36,666 bases of DNA from an uncultured Ruminococcus sp. (GTDB taxonomy: Bacteria; Bacillota; Clostridia; Oscillospirales; Acutalibacteraceae). The notes beneath the pieces are model-generated. The model saw nothing but the letters and a program-made list of their open reading frames with translations, was not told the origin of the DNA and ran no database searches. Shown here piece by piece: positions 7,430 through 13,164 of the stretch; the stretch's first letter is position 1; every line of letters starts with the position of its first letter. The stretch lies in contig CADCCP010000016.1 of the NCBI GenBank assembly GCA_902800005.1, positions 1 through 36,666 on the forward strand, read 5' to 3'. The position numbers and the translations under genes were made by a program.

Positions 7430-7463
7430 AAAAAAGCACCCGAACATTTTCGGGTGCTTTTTT
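7430..7463 (+). terminator. Terminator after the U32 gene
   Basis: A perfect 15-bp stem (AAAAAAGCACCCGAA at 7430-7444 with its complement at 7449-7463) has a 4-base loop and ends in six T. It starts 5 bases after the stop codon. Confidence 0.92.
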
Positions 7464-7546: not shown

Positions 7547-7555
7547 TGATATAAT
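7547..7555 (+). promoter_or_regulatory. Extended -10 promoter (TGATATAAT) of the receiver/kinase operon
   Basis: TG at 7547-7548 precedes a perfect TATAAT (7550-7555) by one base, an extended -10 element. There is no good -35 box. Transcription would begin near 7562, giving a leader of about 120 bases that contains the TTTC/GAAA inverted repeat. Confidence 0.5.
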
Positions 7556-7570
7556 TGAACTTGCAAACAG

Positions 7571-7615
7571 TTTCTTGAAAGTTTTACAGCAAACATTTAC
7601 TTTTATTTCAAGAAA
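7571..7615 (+). promoter_or_regulatory. Paired TTTC-N2-GAAA palindromes, possible operator or leader hairpin
   Basis: TTTCTTGAAA (7571-7580) and TTTCAAGAAA (7606-7615) are perfect reverse complements with centres 35 bp apart. Each is also a short palindrome. They lie just after the predicted start of transcription, so they could be a repressor operator pair or the stem of an RNA hairpin with a 25-base loop. Confidence 0.4.
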
Positions 7616-7682
7616 TTTCCAAATATATTCCAAAGTATTGTTTTATAATGATGACAGAAAATCAATGAAAGCGGTGATATAT

Positions 7683-8033
7683 ATGAACGTGCTTATAGCC
7701 GATCCTGACAGGGATTTCCTGAGCTCATACAAGACTTTGCTTGAACTCTCGGAAAATACAGTGCAGACGGTATTTGACGGCACACAGGTTATGTCAAGGC
7801 TTGCCGAAGAGAAATTCGATGCAGTGATACTTAATGAGAACATACCGAGAATAAAATGTAAGGATATTGTAAAAAGCCTGAATGATGACGGTATACCCGT
7901 TATCGTCATTACGCAGAGAAAAGAAAGGTTCGTAACAGCAGATGACTGTATAAGATTGCCGTTTCTGCCGAATGAGCTGAGGGAAAAACTTGATCATGTA
8001 TGTAAAAAAAGGGCGGTGAATGAGATTGGATAA
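7683..8033 (+). CDS. Stand-alone receiver-like protein lacking the phosphoacceptor Asp
   Basis: The 116-residue protein is a single CheY-like receiver domain with no DNA-binding or enzymatic output domain. The acidic pocket residues Asp7 and Asp9 (VLIADPDRDF) and the switch Thr77 (VIVITQR) are present. In the beta-3 strand FDAVILNENIP the phosphoacceptor aspartate is replaced by Asn51 (codon AAT at 7833-7835), and the conserved lysine of the KP motif is Leu92 (IRLPF). It therefore should not undergo normal phosphorylation. ATG 7683 is chosen because the receiver fold starts there; ATG 7665 would add six residues. It overlaps the sensor-kinase-like gene by 14 bases, which indicates coupled translation. 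Confidence 0.85.
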   Translation: MNVLIADPDRDFLSSYKTLLELSENTVQTVFDGTQVMSRLAEEKFDAVILNENIPRIKCKDIVKSLNDDGIPVIVITQRKERFVTADDCIRLPFLPNELREKLDHVCKKRAVNEIG

Positions 8034-9252
8034 AGTAAGAAAGAAATTTGTGCTGTATGCAGAGCTTTCGGTATTCATATTGCTGACAGTGCTGTTGTCC
8101 GTAATAAATGTTATCAATTTCACGATGGTCGCTGAGGATGCGGATCACATGACGGAGATGATCTCTCTTTCTTCGGGAAAGTTCTTTAAAGAGGAAACTC
8201 CTCCCGAAAATTCCGACAGCGTGGAAAGCAAAAAAGAACGTATGAAAAAATTTGGCATGATGGGACCTGATTCACCTGAGATGAGGGCTTCACTGAGATT
8301 CTTCACATACGCCTTTGACAAGAACGGCAGTGCCGAACTTATAGAATACAGAATGTCGGCACTTACTCAAAGTGATGCAATAGACCTTGCAAAAACTCTT
8401 GTAAAAGAGTCAACGGGCTGGACAAATCTCACATACAGGTATCGTGTCTACGAAAAGGACAAGAAGATATATGTCACGGTCATAGATCAATCCCGTGAAC
8501 TTCTGCCCTCTTACAGAACGCTTATCATATCTGCAATAGGTGAGTTGCTTGTATTGCTGATAAGCTACCTTGTGCTTGTGAAGGTGGGCAAGTCACTTTT
8601 CAAGCAGTTTGAAGAAGCCGACAGAAAACAAAAATATTTTATTGCCAATATCGAACAGGATTTCAAAATGCCCCTGACAGTAATAAGTGCCAATACAGAA
8701 GTGCTTGAAAGAAAGAACGGTTCTGATGAACAGACAAAAGCTATTGACAGACAGGTCAGAAAAATGACGGGATTGGTAAAAGATCTCGGTGCATTGGCGA
8801 TATTCGAGGAAAAAGACATGACGATAACCGATACAGACCTTTCGGCTGTCATGCGGGAGTTTACAGAAAATCAAAAGCAGGTTTTTGAAGCAAAAAATAT
8901 AGAGCTTACAGCGGATATAGCACCGGATATAACTCTTGAAGGCGATGAACAGGCTCTTAAAAAGATACTTTCGGAGCTTGCGGAAAATGCCTTGAGATAC
9001 TCCCTTACAAAAACGTCTTTCACTCTCAGAAAACAGGGAGACAGAATTATTATCTCACAAGCAAATGATACAGACCTGCCAAACGGCAGTGTTGACCAGA
9101 TATTTGACAGATTTACCACTCTCGCAAATGCCAAAGATAAAAATACCGCAGGTTTGGGACTGTCGTATGTCAAGGACATTGTGAAAGCCCATAACGGCAG
9201 AGTCTCTGCAAAAGTTGTCAACGGCATATTTACTGTTGAGATAGCACTGTAA
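8020..9252 (+). CDS. Sensor histidine kinase-like protein lacking the H-box His
   Basis: The 410-residue protein has transmembrane helices at about 12-34 and 167-188 around an external domain of about 130 residues, then a dimerisation helix and an HATPase domain. In a normal H-box (SHELKTPL) the histidine is autophosphorylated; here the segment reads IEQDFKMPLTVI, with Gln213 (CAG at 8656-8658) in its place and Ser and Glu also changed. The N-box (ELAENALRYS) and G2 box (TAGLGLSYV) look intact. The G1 region (ANDTDLPNGSVDQIFDRF) is degenerate, as in several Firmicutes kinases. ATP binding may persist, but autophosphorylation should not. The ATG overlaps the receiver gene, and the stop lies next to an AAGGAGG box for the following gene. 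Confidence 0.88.
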   Translation: MRLDKVRKKFVLYAELSVFILLTVLLSVINVINFTMVAEDADHMTEMISLSSGKFFKEETPPENSDSVESKKERMKKFGMMGPDSPEMRASLRFFTYAFDKNGSAELIEYRMSALTQSDAIDLAKTLVKESTGWTNLTYRYRVYEKDKKIYVTVIDQSRELLPSYRTLIISAIGELLVLLISYLVLVKVGKSLFKQFEEADRKQKYFIANIEQDFKMPLTVISANTEVLERKNGSDEQTKAIDRQVRKMTGLVKDLGALAIFEEKDMTITDTDLSAVMREFTENQKQVFEAKNIELTADIAPDITLEGDEQALKKILSELAENALRYSLTKTSFTLRKQGDRIIISQANDTDLPNGSVDQIFDRFTTLANAKDKNTAGLGLSYVKDIVKAHNGRVSAKVVNGIFTVEIAL

Positions 9253-9267
9253 AAGGAGGTGCAGAAA

Positions 9268-9981
9268 ATGGCAGTTGTTTCAAATCCAATAGTCGTTATG
9301 AAACGCTATGAAATGAAATACATCATGTCAGCCGAACAGACAGAGTATTTTAAAGAAAGCGTCAGGGACTACATGAAAATAGACAAGTTCGGACTTACTT
9401 CAATAGCATCTCTTTACTATGATACACCGAATTACAGACTTATCCGTACATCAGTAGAAAAACCGCCCTTCAAGGAAAAAATAAGGCTTCGTTCCTACGG
9501 CATCGCAACGGATACTTCACCTGTATTCCTCGAACTTAAACGCAAGGCTTACGGAATAGTTTATAAAAGGCGTGTGCAGTCAACTATCCCTCTTGTAAAG
9601 AAGTTTTTTGACGGCGAAGGCGATATATGTGCAGGCGGTCAGATAAACAAGGAAATAACAACTTTCCGTGACTACTATCAAACGCTTGTACCGGCGTGTA
9701 TGATAATTTATGACAGAGTGGCATATTTTCAGCCTGACGGAGATTTAAGACTGACCATTGACCACAACCCCCGTTACAGATATGAAGACCTCGATCTGAG
9801 AGTTTCAATGGACGGCAATTCCCTTTTAAAAGACGGTTACACGATACTTGAAGTAAAGGTACAGCAGGCTGTACCGCTGTGGCTGTCGGATATTCTGACA
9901 AAAGGCAAAATTTATAAAGGCAGTTTCTCTAAATACGGTGAGGCTTACAGACAGCAGCTTCTCCGTACAAGAAATCTATAA
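9268..9981 (+). CDS. VTC-domain polyphosphate polymerase-like protein
   Basis: This protein belongs to the VTC domain family of the triphosphate tunnel metalloenzyme fold; yeast Vtc4 uses it to make polyphosphate from ATP. Expected tunnel residues are visible: RYEMKYI (Arg13, Glu15, Lys17), KIRLRSYG (Arg73, Arg75), FLELKRK (Glu89, Lys91), KRR (100-102), YDRVAYF, LRLTIDH, ILEVKV and a C-terminal GSFSKYGEAYRQ. It has 237 residues and no membrane segment. ATG 9268 is chosen because AAGGAGG (9253-9259) is 8 bases upstream. The next gene, a DUF4956 membrane protein, is a frequent partner of bacterial VTC proteins. Catalysis in this bacterium is inferred, not shown. Confidence 0.86.
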   Translation: MAVVSNPIVVMKRYEMKYIMSAEQTEYFKESVRDYMKIDKFGLTSIASLYYDTPNYRLIRTSVEKPPFKEKIRLRSYGIATDTSPVFLELKRKAYGIVYKRRVQSTIPLVKKFFDGEGDICAGGQINKEITTFRDYYQTLVPACMIIYDRVAYFQPDGDLRLTIDHNPRYRYEDLDLRVSMDGNSLLKDGYTILEVKVQQAVPLWLSDILTKGKIYKGSFSKYGEAYRQQLLRTRNL

Positions 9982-9999
9982 AAGAAAGGAAAATCAATT

Positions 10000-10671
10000 A
10001 TGTTTGACTCTATCTTCACAACCTCACCCACAGCGGCTCAGTTTTTTATCATGGCACTTTCTGCCATCGTTTCGGGATTTATCTATTCATGGATAATGTC
10101 ATTTAAAATTCGTGCTAAAAAACGCTTTTTCATGGTAGCAGCGATAGTGCCGTTCATGGTGGCGGCAGTTATCGCATTCGTTAAGGGAAATATCGGTGCA
10201 GGCGTTGCGATAGGCGGTGCATTCAGTTTGATACGCTTCAGAAGTGCTCAGGGAAGTGCGGATGAAATTGCAGCTATACTCATTGCTATGGGTTCAGGCA
10301 TCGCTTTCGGTATGGGATATATAGGTTACGGCATAGTTATCCTTTTGGGAATGGCAGTCATATTCCTTATTCTCTCATTTCTGCCGATATTTGAACACAA
10401 GAGTATGTCTGAGGACAGACTTCTCAGAATAACCATACCTGAGTCTCTTGAATATTCAGGTGCATTCGATGACACTTTTGCACACTACCTTAAATCATAC
10501 GAAAATGCAGGCGTGAAAACTACCGGAATGGGTTCTATGTTCCGTCTGTCCTTCAAGATACAAATGAAAGATCCCTCTGAGGAAAAGGCTTTCATAGACG
10601 AGCTTCGCACAAAAAACGGCAATCTTGAAATAGCCGTTCTCCCCTACACAGAACCCCAGAATCAACTTTAA
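10000..10671 (+). CDS. DUF4956 integral membrane protein
   Basis: The 223-residue protein has about four hydrophobic segments (roughly 15-33, 43-61, 63-80, 95-128) and a C-terminal cytoplasmic domain of about 90 residues. The glycine-rich GNIGAGVAIGGAFSLIRFRS stretch is typical of DUF4956. No biochemical function is established for the family. Its recurrent pairing with VTC-domain proteins suggests it forms the membrane part of a polyphosphate synthesis, export or anchoring unit, by analogy with the membrane subunits of the yeast VTC complex; that analogy is inference. The start has an AAAGGA ribosome binding site, and the gene lies 18 bases after the VTC gene. Confidence 0.85.
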   Translation: MFDSIFTTSPTAAQFFIMALSAIVSGFIYSWIMSFKIRAKKRFFMVAAIVPFMVAAVIAFVKGNIGAGVAIGGAFSLIRFRSAQGSADEIAAILIAMGSGIAFGMGYIGYGIVILLGMAVIFLILSFLPIFEHKSMSEDRLLRITIPESLEYSGAFDDTFAHYLKSYENAGVKTTGMGSMFRLSFKIQMKDPSEEKAFIDELRTKNGNLEIAVLPYTEPQNQL

Positions 10672-10721
10672 ATCAATGTACGGTTATAAATGTTGACCTT
10701 AAAAGGAGATGAAATTTTATT

Positions 10722-12425
10722 ATGAAAAAGTTAACAGTGATATTTATGGCATTGGTGCTGTCGGTAACGGCTCTGACGGCTTGTTCGGATACATCGGGAC
10801 AAAGTTCTGTTTCATCTGATACGGCTGTTTCACAGACATCTGAAAATGAGAATTCCATGTTTGCGGACGGAGATTATAAAAATGTTGCAGATGAAGGCGA
10901 AAATGCCACTATAACTCTTTCGGGCGGAGAGGGTACTATATCCGATACGACAAGGGGCAGTTCGGGCAGTGAAGTCACCATCACTTCAAAAGGTACTTAC
11001 AGAGTGACGGGCAGTTCCGAAAATGTCACTATAAATATAGATGACGATACACAGTCGGGAAATATTTATCTTATACTTGATAATGTCACCATGAAGAATA
11101 CGGAAAATGCGTGTATCAATGTCAAGGCTTGCGATAAACTCATTATACAATGTGTCGGGGAAAATACTCTGACTTACAGCAGTACAGATACAAGTGCAAA
11201 AATTGACGGTGCTGTATATTCAAAAGATGATGTCACGATAAACGGTGACGGCACTTTGAACGTCACTTCAAATATGCATGGTATCGTGTGTAATGAAGAT
11301 ATGAAAGTGACGGGTGCAAAGCTGAATGTAACGGCTGAAAGTATAGGCATTAAAGCTGAAAACTCTTTCAAGATGGACGGCGGTACGGTTTCGGTGCAGT
11401 CGGGACATGACGGCATACAGCTTTCTAATAACGACAACAACAGTTATTTCTATATGTCGGACGGCACTCTCACCATAAATGCAGATTATGACGGTATTTC
11501 CGTCAAGGCAGGTGACGGCAGTACAACATTTACGGGATATGTCGAACTGGCAGGCGGTACGGCTGATATAATATCGGGCGGCGGCTCTGTAAATTCAAAG
11601 AGTGACACTTCCCAAAAGGGTATCAAATGTGACGGTGACATAAAATTAAGTGAAACAAAACTGACGGTATCAAGTGCAGATGACGCTGTTCACGGAAATG
11701 CAAATATAACTGTCGATTCCGGTGATATATCTCTTTCGTCAAGTGATGACGGCATGACCGCAAGCGGCACTATTACTGTCAATAACGGTACTCTGGATAT
11801 ATCAAAATCGTATGAGGGCATTGAAGCCGAAACTGTTATTATCAATGATGGAAAAGTATCTGTAATTTCAAGTGATGACGGTATAAATTCGGCAGGCGGC
11901 TCGGATACAAATGCAAATGATGAAAATATGTGGAGTGAGAGCAGCAGCGGAAATATCACGATAAACGGCGGATATATCTATGTAAATGCATCCGGTGACG
12001 GTCTGGACAGCAACGGTTCTATATATGTCACAGGCGGTACAACTATCGTGGAAGGCTCAACGACAGGCGGAAACGGTGCATTGGATAATGGTGACGGCAG
12101 AGATTGCGTGGCAAGTATCACAGGCGGTACGGTGCTTGCATTGGGTACAACGGATATGGCAGTAAATTTTGACACCGGTACACAATGTTCTGCACTCGTG
12201 GATATATCGGGTACGGGTGATACAGAAATAACTGTTGATGACGGCTCGGACTTCAAATTCACGGCAACAAAGAATTTTGCTTGTGCGGTGTACTCCTCTC
12301 CGAACATGACACAGGGCAATTCCTACACCCTCACCGCAGGCACGAATACAGCAACTCTTGATTTCTCATCAGACTTGTATTACAGTAACGTGCATAGCAT
12401 GGGCATAGGCGGTTTCGGAAGATAA
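10722..12425 (+). CDS. Beta-helix surface lipoprotein (DUF4353, carbohydrate-binding type)
   Basis: The 567-residue protein starts with a lipoprotein signal peptide ending in LTAC, with Cys21 as the lipidated residue, followed by a Ser/Thr-rich linker (about 22-55). The rest is built of short repeats in which motifs such as SSDDGMTASGTITVNNGTLDIS and NGGYIYVNASGDGLDSNG recur in degenerate form, as in right-handed parallel beta-helices of the DUF4353 family, often annotated as carbohydrate-binding. Asp-Gly motifs suggest calcium or turn positions. It should be tethered outside the membrane. It is the last gene of the receiver/kinase/VTC/DUF4956 operon, about 50 bases after DUF4956, and is followed by a strong terminator. 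Similar clusters elsewhere often carry a CotH kinase-like gene, which is absent here. Ligand unknown. Confidence 0.82.
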   Translation: MKKLTVIFMALVLSVTALTACSDTSGQSSVSSDTAVSQTSENENSMFADGDYKNVADEGENATITLSGGEGTISDTTRGSSGSEVTITSKGTYRVTGSSENVTINIDDDTQSGNIYLILDNVTMKNTENACINVKACDKLIIQCVGENTLTYSSTDTSAKIDGAVYSKDDVTINGDGTLNVTSNMHGIVCNEDMKVTGAKLNVTAESIGIKAENSFKMDGGTVSVQSGHDGIQLSNNDNNSYFYMSDGTLTINADYDGISVKAGDGSTTFTGYVELAGGTADIISGGGSVNSKSDTSQKGIKCDGDIKLSETKLTVSSADDAVHGNANITVDSGDISLSSSDDGMTASGTITVNNGTLDISKSYEGIEAETVIINDGKVSVISSDDGINSAGGSDTNANDENMWSESSSGNITINGGYIYVNASGDGLDSNGSIYVTGGTTIVEGSTTGGNGALDNGDGRDCVASITGGTVLALGTTDMAVNFDTGTQCSALVDISGTGDTEITVDDGSDFKFTATKNFACAVYSSPNMTQGNSYTLTAGTNTATLDFSSDLYYSNVHSMGIGGFGR

Positions 12426-12432
12426 AATAAAT

Positions 12433-12470
12433 GCAGTCGGTAAGTTTTTACCGACTGCTGATTTTTTTGG
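12433..12470 (+). terminator. Terminator ending the VTC/DUF4956 operon
   Basis: A perfect 11-bp stem (GCAGTCGGTAA at 12433-12443 with its complement at 12448-12458) has a GTTT loop and is followed by seven T. Confidence 0.92.
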
Positions 12471-12499
12471 TTGAAATAAAGCGGGTATTGTGTTAGAAT
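12471..12499 (+). promoter_or_regulatory. Promoter of the cohesin-like gene, TTGAAA-N17-TAGAAT
   Basis: TTGAAA (12471-12476) and TAGAAT (12494-12499) are 17 bases apart, with TGT immediately before the -10 box (extended -10). The transcript would begin near 12506, leaving only about 20 bases before the first ATG. Confidence 0.6.
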
Positions 12500-12525: not shown

Positions 12526-13164
12526 ATGCACATCGCTGATGATGTCAAACAAAATAAGGCTTTCAATATGTATCTTTCACTTAACAGTGATGTTGATATA
12601 GGTGCTTGCCGTATCAATATCTCTTATGATAAAGATAAGCTGGAACTCAAAAACATCTCACTCGAAGAAAAAAGCGAAGATGATGTTTTATATTACAACG
12701 ACAACGCAGGCAAGGCAGATATTATTTATATGCCTGAAGTCATGCAGGACATTGTGATACGCTTCAAACCGAAAGGCTCATTTGAGAAATATGACTTTGA
12801 GACATTCCTGTATGAAGTCTGTGACAAAGAGGGAAATTATTTGTATGCAGATACAGTATTCACATTTTCGCTGAATGTCATGAATGAAGTGTCTGAGACA
12901 TCGATGCCTGAAAAAAGCAGAGTAAAAACAGAAGTGTCTAAAAGTCACTCTCGGTCAGTCGAGATAGCCGCTGAAAGTTCAGAGGAAAGCGAATATTCGA
13001 GAGAATACCGTGTCATACACGTTGAGCAGTCCGCCGACCAGACAACTTTTCTCGTGTTTGCGGGGATAGTGATAATTTTTGTGGGGTGTCTGGCATTTGT
13101 CTACAAGAGGGGCTTTAAAGACGGCAAGGCTACCGAAAGAAAAATTGACAAAGGCGAAAAGTAA
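12526..13164 (+). CDS. Cohesin-like domain protein with C-terminal anchor, probably missing its 5' end
   Basis: The 212-residue protein has a cohesin-like beta-sandwich: FNMYLSLNSDVDIGACRINI, then SYDKDKLELKNISLE, YYNDNAGKADIIYM and DIVIRFKPKGSFEK (about 13-95). A Ser/Glu-rich linker follows (about 120-160), then one transmembrane helix (about 170-190) with a basic KRGFKDGK tail. Positive charge after the helix implies the N-terminal domain is outside, yet there is no signal peptide. The in-frame codons between a TAG (12499-12501) and the ATG read QSSEVTLS, which looks like protein sequence continuing upstream, and there is no clear ribosome binding site. It is probably a 5'-truncated gene, possibly a pseudogene. 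Cohesin identity is from pattern only. Confidence 0.6.
   Translation: MHIADDVKQNKAFNMYLSLNSDVDIGACRINISYDKDKLELKNISLEEKSEDDVLYYNDNAGKADIIYMPEVMQDIVIRFKPKGSFEKYDFETFLYEVCDKEGNYLYADTVFTFSLNVMNEVSETSMPEKSRVKTEVSKSHSRSVEIAAESSEESEYSREYRVIHVEQSADQTTFLVFAGIVIIFVGCLAFVYKRGFKDGKATERKIDKGEK

Follow-up and report, generated by a model that had tools for sequence, protein, structure and literature searches.

The window analysed here is a stretch of 36,666 nucleotides from an uncultured Ruminococcus species (contig CADCCP010000016.1, forward strand). It encodes a receiver-like protein (P0001, 116 amino acids, 7683-8033, plus strand) and a membrane histidine kinase-like protein (P0002, 410 amino acids, 8020-9252, plus strand), followed by a VTC-domain protein and a DUF4956 membrane protein. 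We propose, with a little less than even confidence, that a two-component system has here become a switch that works without phosphorylation, is probably driven by ATP and acts on the VTC/DUF4956 enzyme. What has been lost and gained in the signalling proteins is read from aligned sequences; ATPase activity, contacts and target we infer.

The kinase-like protein: residues lost, kept and gained

P0002 contains two hydrophobic segments (residues 8-26 and 166-184) that flank an outer domain, a HisKA bundle (Pfam, 5.1e-08) and an ATP domain of the HATPase_c family (47.3 bits, 3.3e-12). In the bundle Gln213 (CAG, 8656-8658) stands in the phosphoacceptor column in place of His, and Met217 replaces the Thr four residues further on. 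Thr or Asn at this +4 position is the phosphatase residue of the HisKA bundle. For the column counts twin genomes were removed by identical sequence, and from the sets identified by gene position the short kinase L076 and the short receivers L001, L002, L004, L008 and L030 were dropped. The phosphoacceptor His is present in 4 of 85 kinase-like relatives and in all 53 other kinases, the +4 Thr in 0/85 and 53/53. Across the 78 kinase-like proteins identified by gene position, the His column contains Asn (28), Lys (13), Ser (12), Gln (10), Arg (7), His (4), Thr (3) and Gly (1), and the +4 column Met (32), Val (20), Leu (14), Ile (10), His (1) and Ala (1). The His site has undergone at least 28 residue changes on the tree; in these alignments the phosphoacceptor position drifts across the kinase-like clade.

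Four relatives carry the His (L009, L024, L025 and L094). That they are working kinases by reversion was rejected. They lie on three branches inside the clade and have Met, Leu or Val at +4, and the receivers that belong to them or to their twins (L009/L038, L068, L069 and L094; L068 and L069 count as the twins of L024 and L025 because their positions match) have Asn or Ser at the Asp site and Leu or Phe for the Lys.

The fold itself is retained, as the earlier note on this DNA had suggested for both proteins. HisKA and HATPase_c both match in 48/48 members of one kinase-like set (A1, E<=0.01), and by fold the P0002 clade can be classed with the pseudo-histidine kinases, which have the HisKA and HATPase_c fold without the His. 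The ATP domain of P0002 has Glu319, Asn323 and the motif GLGL (378-381). F207, P218, T220, N323, FDRF (362-365), N370, G378, G380 and L381 are kept in 78/78 kinase-like proteins, and the pocket residues, namely the N-box Asn323 and the G2 glycines 378 and 380, in 85/85. Many residues of the outer domain are likewise invariant. CBM_11 matches fall in the outer domain of 8/48 kinase-like members at E<=0.01; in ten scanned proteins, those at L049:1548-2834 and L055:2328-3617 reach 21 and 16.9 bits, under the cut-off of 27. A carbohydrate-binding sensor was rejected, the matches seen being below cut-off and a ligand hint at most.

The clade has also gained residues. Glu319 is found in 84/85 kinase-like proteins and in 0/52 readable other kinases; in 31 sister kinases the column contains Ile (25), Leu (2), Val (2) and Thr (2). 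A study of CpxA describes the conserved Glu equivalent to CpxA Asn356 as the general base in GHKL ATPases and CpxA Asn360 as strictly conserved (PMC3904827). The spacing of four between Glu319 and Asn323 is that of Asn356 and Asn360, and in a profile alignment with the best PDB matches, 4jas and 5uht, the Glu319 column coincides with the first Asn of their N box. The P0002 clade shares with GHKL ATPases such as gyrase, Hsp90 and MutL a Glu placed four residues ahead of the N-box Asn, where in those enzymes it is catalytic (PMC3904827). Unlike in those enzymes, the Glu lies within a membrane sensor with a HisKA bundle, and hydrolysis is predicted from sequence. A total of 22 positions are newly fixed, with a residue shared by at least 95% of the pseudo-kinase clade and by at most 20% of sister kinases; they are spread over the outer domain, the second membrane segment, the bundle and the ATP domain.

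The new Glu might instead activate a hydroxyl group, which would make P0002 a kinase with another acceptor, located in VTC, DUF4956 or the receiver-like protein. Such a role would be compatible with Glu319 and the retained pocket, GHKL Ser kinases (SpoIIAB, mitochondrial PDK) have Glu at the same position, and the hydroxyl residue T220 is invariant in 85/85 pseudo-kinases compared with 32/53 other kinases. The 70 column-counted receiver-like proteins, however, contain no invariant hydroxyl residue, and we consider this explanation very unlikely.

The receiver-like protein and its winged-helix remnant

P0001 matches the receiver family PF00072 (Response_reg, 42.9 bits, 6.3e-11) and is a pseudo-receiver in the sense of a match to this family without phosphotransfer residues. 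Pro8, Asn51 and Leu92 occupy the second-acid, Asp and Lys positions, and the protein is without an output domain. Across 70 receiver-like proteins identified by gene position, the Lys column contains Leu (33), Phe (20), Tyr (13), His (3) and Val (1), and Lys in none. The second acidic column contains Pro (37), Ser (11), Ala (9), Gln (7), Glu (2) and Thr (1) with three gaps, that is Glu in 2/67 readable proteins and no Asp. The Asp column contains Asp (29), Asn (22), Ser (11), Glu (5), Gly (2) and one unreadable residue. All three residues are intact in 27/27 receivers of sister loci. In the comparison of gained positions the receiver groups were chosen by the presence of Lys; these groups were not used for counts. 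P93-F94 is present in 70/70.

By these alignments the losses that run throughout the clade are those of the second acidic residue and the active-site Lys, not of the Asp. The earlier note had given the replacement of Asp by Asn51 and of His by Gln213 as the reason why a classical phosphorelay was unlikely. Both substitutions are real, the codon of Asn51 (AAT, 7833-7835) also lying in the phosphoacceptor column, and the conclusion stands on the near absence of His and the complete absence of the +4 Thr and the receiver Lys. The exchange to Asn51 is not the decisive one, since Asp is kept in 29/69 readable relatives.

The description of the protein as receiver-only holds in the window and not in general. 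A remnant of a C-terminal winged helix is present in 54/72 scorable relatives and absent in 18/72 including the window (7/79 rows were unscorable). The remnant aligns with OmpR winged helices at 94-96% probability, on a template of only three canonical winged helices, with about 18 residues missing in the helix-turn-helix region. Its loss requires at least nine changes on the tree, five of them forced. Sequence comparison thus makes the receiver-only form secondary, from loss of the OmpR winged helix. Neither the window nor most relatives have the complete winged-helix output domain of the OmpR family. A winged helix short of about 18 residues, as in L081:3163-3765, should hardly bind DNA in the usual way.

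The receiver-like protein could still be a transcription regulator that controls this operon or others without phosphorylation, in the manner of ChxR. Non-phosphorylated OmpR-family regulators such as ChxR and GlnR are described, and the remnant of most scorable relatives does align with OmpR winged helices. The residues it lacks are, however, those around the helix-turn-helix, none of six single relatives scanned gives a PF00486 match at E<=1, and the domain has been lost repeatedly, in the window among others, while the pair persists. We regard this explanation as quite unlikely.

Conservation, origin and genomic context

Synteny was counted in the best 80 of 148 confirmed VTC loci (72-99% identity to the window VTC), without those whose flanks were too short. 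Where 1.3 kb or more of upstream sequence is available, the kinase-like gene immediately precedes VTC in 71/72 loci; where there is 2.0 kb or more, the receiver-like and kinase-like genes both precede it in 64/65. DUF4956 follows VTC in 76/76. The sole exception to the first count, L087:3425-5041, has an ordinary-type kinase directly upstream of VTC. The linkage of the pair to VTC and DUF4956 claimed by the earlier note is therefore general, and the search for the block in relatives that it called for finds the synteny held and the substitutions clade-wide. A gene for a Cthe_2159-family lipoprotein, which belongs to the unit in the window, follows the block in 33 of the 60 loci that have 2.5 kb or more of downstream sequence and precedes VTC in 7/80; the lipoprotein is the loosest, optional member of the block. 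No gene fusions were found in 111 loci and L112-L159.

The kinase-like protein is present in 47/64 genus genomes (E<=1e-60); 17/64, some of them incomplete, are without a match. At E<=1e-140 it occurs in 11/295 order genomes, from families f1, f10, f17 and f20, the next match being at 1e-71, and one further kinase-like protein was found in 391 class genomes (G560, family f40). The ratio of non-synonymous to synonymous substitution rates (dN/dS) was taken against the near relatives L004, L008/L036 (the same genome) and L037. It is 0.086-0.135 for the receiver-like gene, 0.075-0.096 for the kinase-like gene, 0.026-0.032 for VTC and 0.018-0.041 for DUF4956, with dS values near saturation. Values of about 0.1 for both signalling genes argue against decay, and the pair looks, from its sequences, like a new function under selection, single broken copies notwithstanding.

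Sequencing error and local decay were rejected because the substitutions recur across the clade with purifying selection. The earlier note held that relatives with the same block and normal His and Asp would indicate local decay. Such a gene order does exist, at six loci, with kinases that fall outside the pseudo-kinase clade; local decay fails because the substituted pair forms one clade that is found in several genera and families and evolves under purifying selection. Decay on a wider scale, of a two-component system that travels with the VTC operon, would account for the changeable His site, the repeated loss of the winged helix, the faster evolution of both genes than of VTC and DUF4956, a split kinase-like gene (L095) and the genus genomes without a match. 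It would not be expected to show a dN/dS of about 0.1, 22 newly fixed positions, a gene order kept in 71/72 loci or a spread over several families. This constraint already makes decay unlikely, and we think it highly improbable.

The kinase-like proteins form one clade, on one side of a single branch with a long stem (Shimodaira-Hasegawa-like approximate likelihood ratio test, SH-aLRT, 100). FITDAGHEIKTPL is an example of the bundle sequence in the nearest ordinary kinases. From 45 order genomes matched, 30 loci were examined; 18 of 31 examined ordinary kinases adjoin a VTC, DUF4956 or Cthe_2159 gene within the fetched flanks. The six loci mentioned above (L149, L158, L176, L177, L181 and L183) are sister OmpR-type systems with the regulator-kinase-VTC order of the window on one strand. 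For a subset of the related full-length kinases, the identity to P0002 is 28-35%. The sister systems differ from the window pair in having the His, the +4 Thr, the acid pair, the Asp and the Lys, and a winged-helix end is visible in 26/27 sister receivers (by eye; not in L175), unlike in P0001. The trees set the pseudo-kinase clade on a long branch beside unrelated kinases and do not resolve its sister. Descent from a VTC-linked canonical locus is likely, judging by similarity and synteny. One locus, L140, combines an ordinary regulator and kinase, Cthe_2159, the pseudo-receiver, the pseudo-kinase, VTC and DUF4956. In L103, L106, L108 and L140 an ordinary kinase, Cthe_2159, the pseudo pair and VTC-DUF4956 stand in a row on one strand.

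The pair might also act on a normal two-component system whose genes lie elsewhere, modulating it through heterodimers or through competition for a canonical regulator or kinase, as discussed for CmrT with CmrRS; a review of pseudo-receivers sets out such a modulator model for CmrT (PMC12632262). A second kinase occurs in 12/80 loci, with an ordinary pair directly upstream in L054, L057, L067, L075 and L093, and further kinases, with their boxes intact, are encoded in the source genome (L113/L121, L114/L123 and L115/L124). We nevertheless hold this to be unlikely. In 68/80 loci there is no second kinase nearby, a count limited by locus length, the second kinases that do occur sit on different branches of the tree, and the constant neighbours of the pair are VTC and DUF4956, no other kinase.

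In the window the two signalling genes head a plus-strand unit of five genes (7683-12425). The five open reading frames lie where the earlier note had placed them and their six Pfam matches are all above the gathering scores. The reading frames of P0001 and P0002 share 14 overlapping bases. The VTC-domain, polyphosphate-polymerase-like protein P0003 (237 amino acids, 9268-9981; PF09359, 142.6 bits, 2e-41) starts at an ATG at 9268 with AAAGGAGGT just 5' of it. P0004 (223 amino acids, 10000-10671) is the DUF4956 protein (PF16316, 37.3 bits with a cut-off of 30.6, 3e-09), with four hydrophobic segments, and P0005 (567 amino acids, 10722-12425) is the optional lipoprotein (PF14262, 216.8 bits, 4.1e-64). 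An intrinsic terminator on the plus strand (12433-12458), with an 11-pair stem and a T-rich tail, was found by the terminator scan. The other boundary, a plus-strand extended -10 element (TGA-TATAAT, 7547-7555), is seen by eye and absent from the output of the promoter scan, which demands a -35. The preceding gene ends in a hairpin of its own near 7436-7463 (by eye; not listed by the scan). Directly past the terminator a plus-strand gene (12526-13164) has a weak cohesin-domain match (PF00963, 24.5 bits with a cut-off of 24.1), and the scan places an extended -10 type promoter-like site before it (12471-12499). The source assembly has 2,395,020 bases in 165 contigs and a single VTC match. The nearest named relatives of the VTC gene are uncultured rumen Ruminococcus-type metagenome-assembled genomes.

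A putative phosphate-free switch and its relatives

The ancestor of the first two genes would have been an ordinary OmpR-type two-component system. The losses in receiver and kinase, with the relic winged helix, indicate that phosphate transfer and, very probably, ordinary DNA binding have been given up. The retained pocket and the new Glu319 point to continued ATP binding, with water as a possible new acceptor; the sensor would bind, and probably hydrolyse, ATP as directed by an envelope signal. Docking of the receiver, too, is probably retained, to judge by the conserved bundle proline and the P93-F94 of the receiver. It may stay docked and read movement of the bundle as conformation rather than as phosphate. 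Tight VTC-DUF4956 linkage and the lost DNA-binding part suggest direct control of the enzyme, and the pair would act on this membrane enzyme by contact, not transcription. Control of a phosphate polymer or another surface product would follow. That the pair gates polyphosphate synthesis we infer, as the earlier note did. A more far-reaching form of the proposal is doubtful. The whole His-Asp phosphorelay pair would have become an ATPase-driven membrane switch, in which the GHKL Glu swaps the His acceptor for water and the receiver, now an adaptor that works by conformation, gates or powers a VTC/DUF4956 polymer synthase or exporter directly.

The alignment of the VTC protein (114 rows, with twins kept) contains many near-invariant Lys, Arg and Glu positions, and no PDB relative was found by sequence at E<=0.1. 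PPK1 (PF02503) is present in 40/41 genus genomes, the source genome being in the set, and Ppx-GppA (PF02541) was matched in 1/41. Polyphosphate would thus be made by PPK1, yet the usual exopolyphosphatase family was not found in 40/41. VTC as the sole polyphosphate synthase was rejected, given PPK1 in 40/41. VTC may, to judge by sequence, supply a special pool, which is perhaps exported or bound at the surface.

Several points weigh against the proposed switch. The gain of Glu319 is a single event on the tree, so that 84/85 does not represent 84 independent observations. Some true kinases, such as those of the HisKA_3 type, have a Glu here as well. Both signalling genes evolve about three times faster than VTC and DUF4956, and the kinase-like gene is in two pieces in L095 and gives two separate matches in G021. 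In a mirror-tree comparison for receiver-kinase contact, given VTC and DUF4956, the partial correlation (r) between the receiver and the kinase bundle is 0.33. The outer domain gives the same value (0.335) and the ATP domain 0.36, and the signal is therefore unspecific to the bundle. The presence of PPK1 in nearly all genus genomes makes the VTC product uncertain. Finally, VTC-DUF4956 occurs without the pair in G001, G023 and G020 (L125, L126 and L141; VTC 68-71% identical to that of the window). The pair is thus not needed by every such enzyme, which also fits a regulatory rather than a catalytic role.

Pseudo-kinases and pseudo-receivers are already known, separately (PMC4211667, PMC12632262). 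DivL of Caulobacter, like P0002, has a HisKA-type fold without the His, with Tyr in its place, and is described as without kinase or phosphatase activity and as acting by conformation, binding a response regulator (PMC4211667). DivL is reported to keep a fixed Tyr and to sense a normal phosphorylated partner, DivK~P, and the available part of that paper does not mention a gain of Glu (PMC4211667). In the window clade, in contrast, the phosphoacceptor position drifts and the partner receiver is without its own catalytic residues. Bacterial pseudo-receivers share with P0001 a PF00072 fold without phosphotransfer residues, receiver domains missing the Asp being reported at 2.0% (PMC12632262). P0001 differs in being co-encoded with a pseudo-kinase throughout a clade; the available part of that review contains no such pair. 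The pel-adjacent accessory genes, cotH, poly-phosphate polymerase and DUF4956, resemble the window in that the polymerase adjoins DUF4956 in a surface context, and no pseudo two-component pair is mentioned with them in the available part of the report (PMC7112168).

Our searches of the open-licence literature turned up neither a co-encoded pair in which both partners are disabled nor a regulator of VTC-DUF4956, and little on these enzymes overall. For the coupling of such a pair to VTC/DUF4956, which the earlier note believed to be undescribed, they gave no description either. The 2025 review of pseudo-receivers calls their activating and inactivating mechanisms a mystery (PMC12632262). The present family is a natural case of a kinase and a receiver that are both disabled, are still adjacent and have acquired new fixed residues. 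Normal relatives, often at similar loci, provide matched material for testing how a sensor signals without phosphate, and the pair is a candidate regulator for VTC-DUF4956 membrane enzymes. Many related gut bacteria keep the pair next to a polyphosphate-type polymerase, which suggests an old signalling pair rebuilt into a switch of another kind. In its more far-reaching form, the proposed switch would make the pair a descendant of two-component signalling that acts post-translationally and without phosphate.

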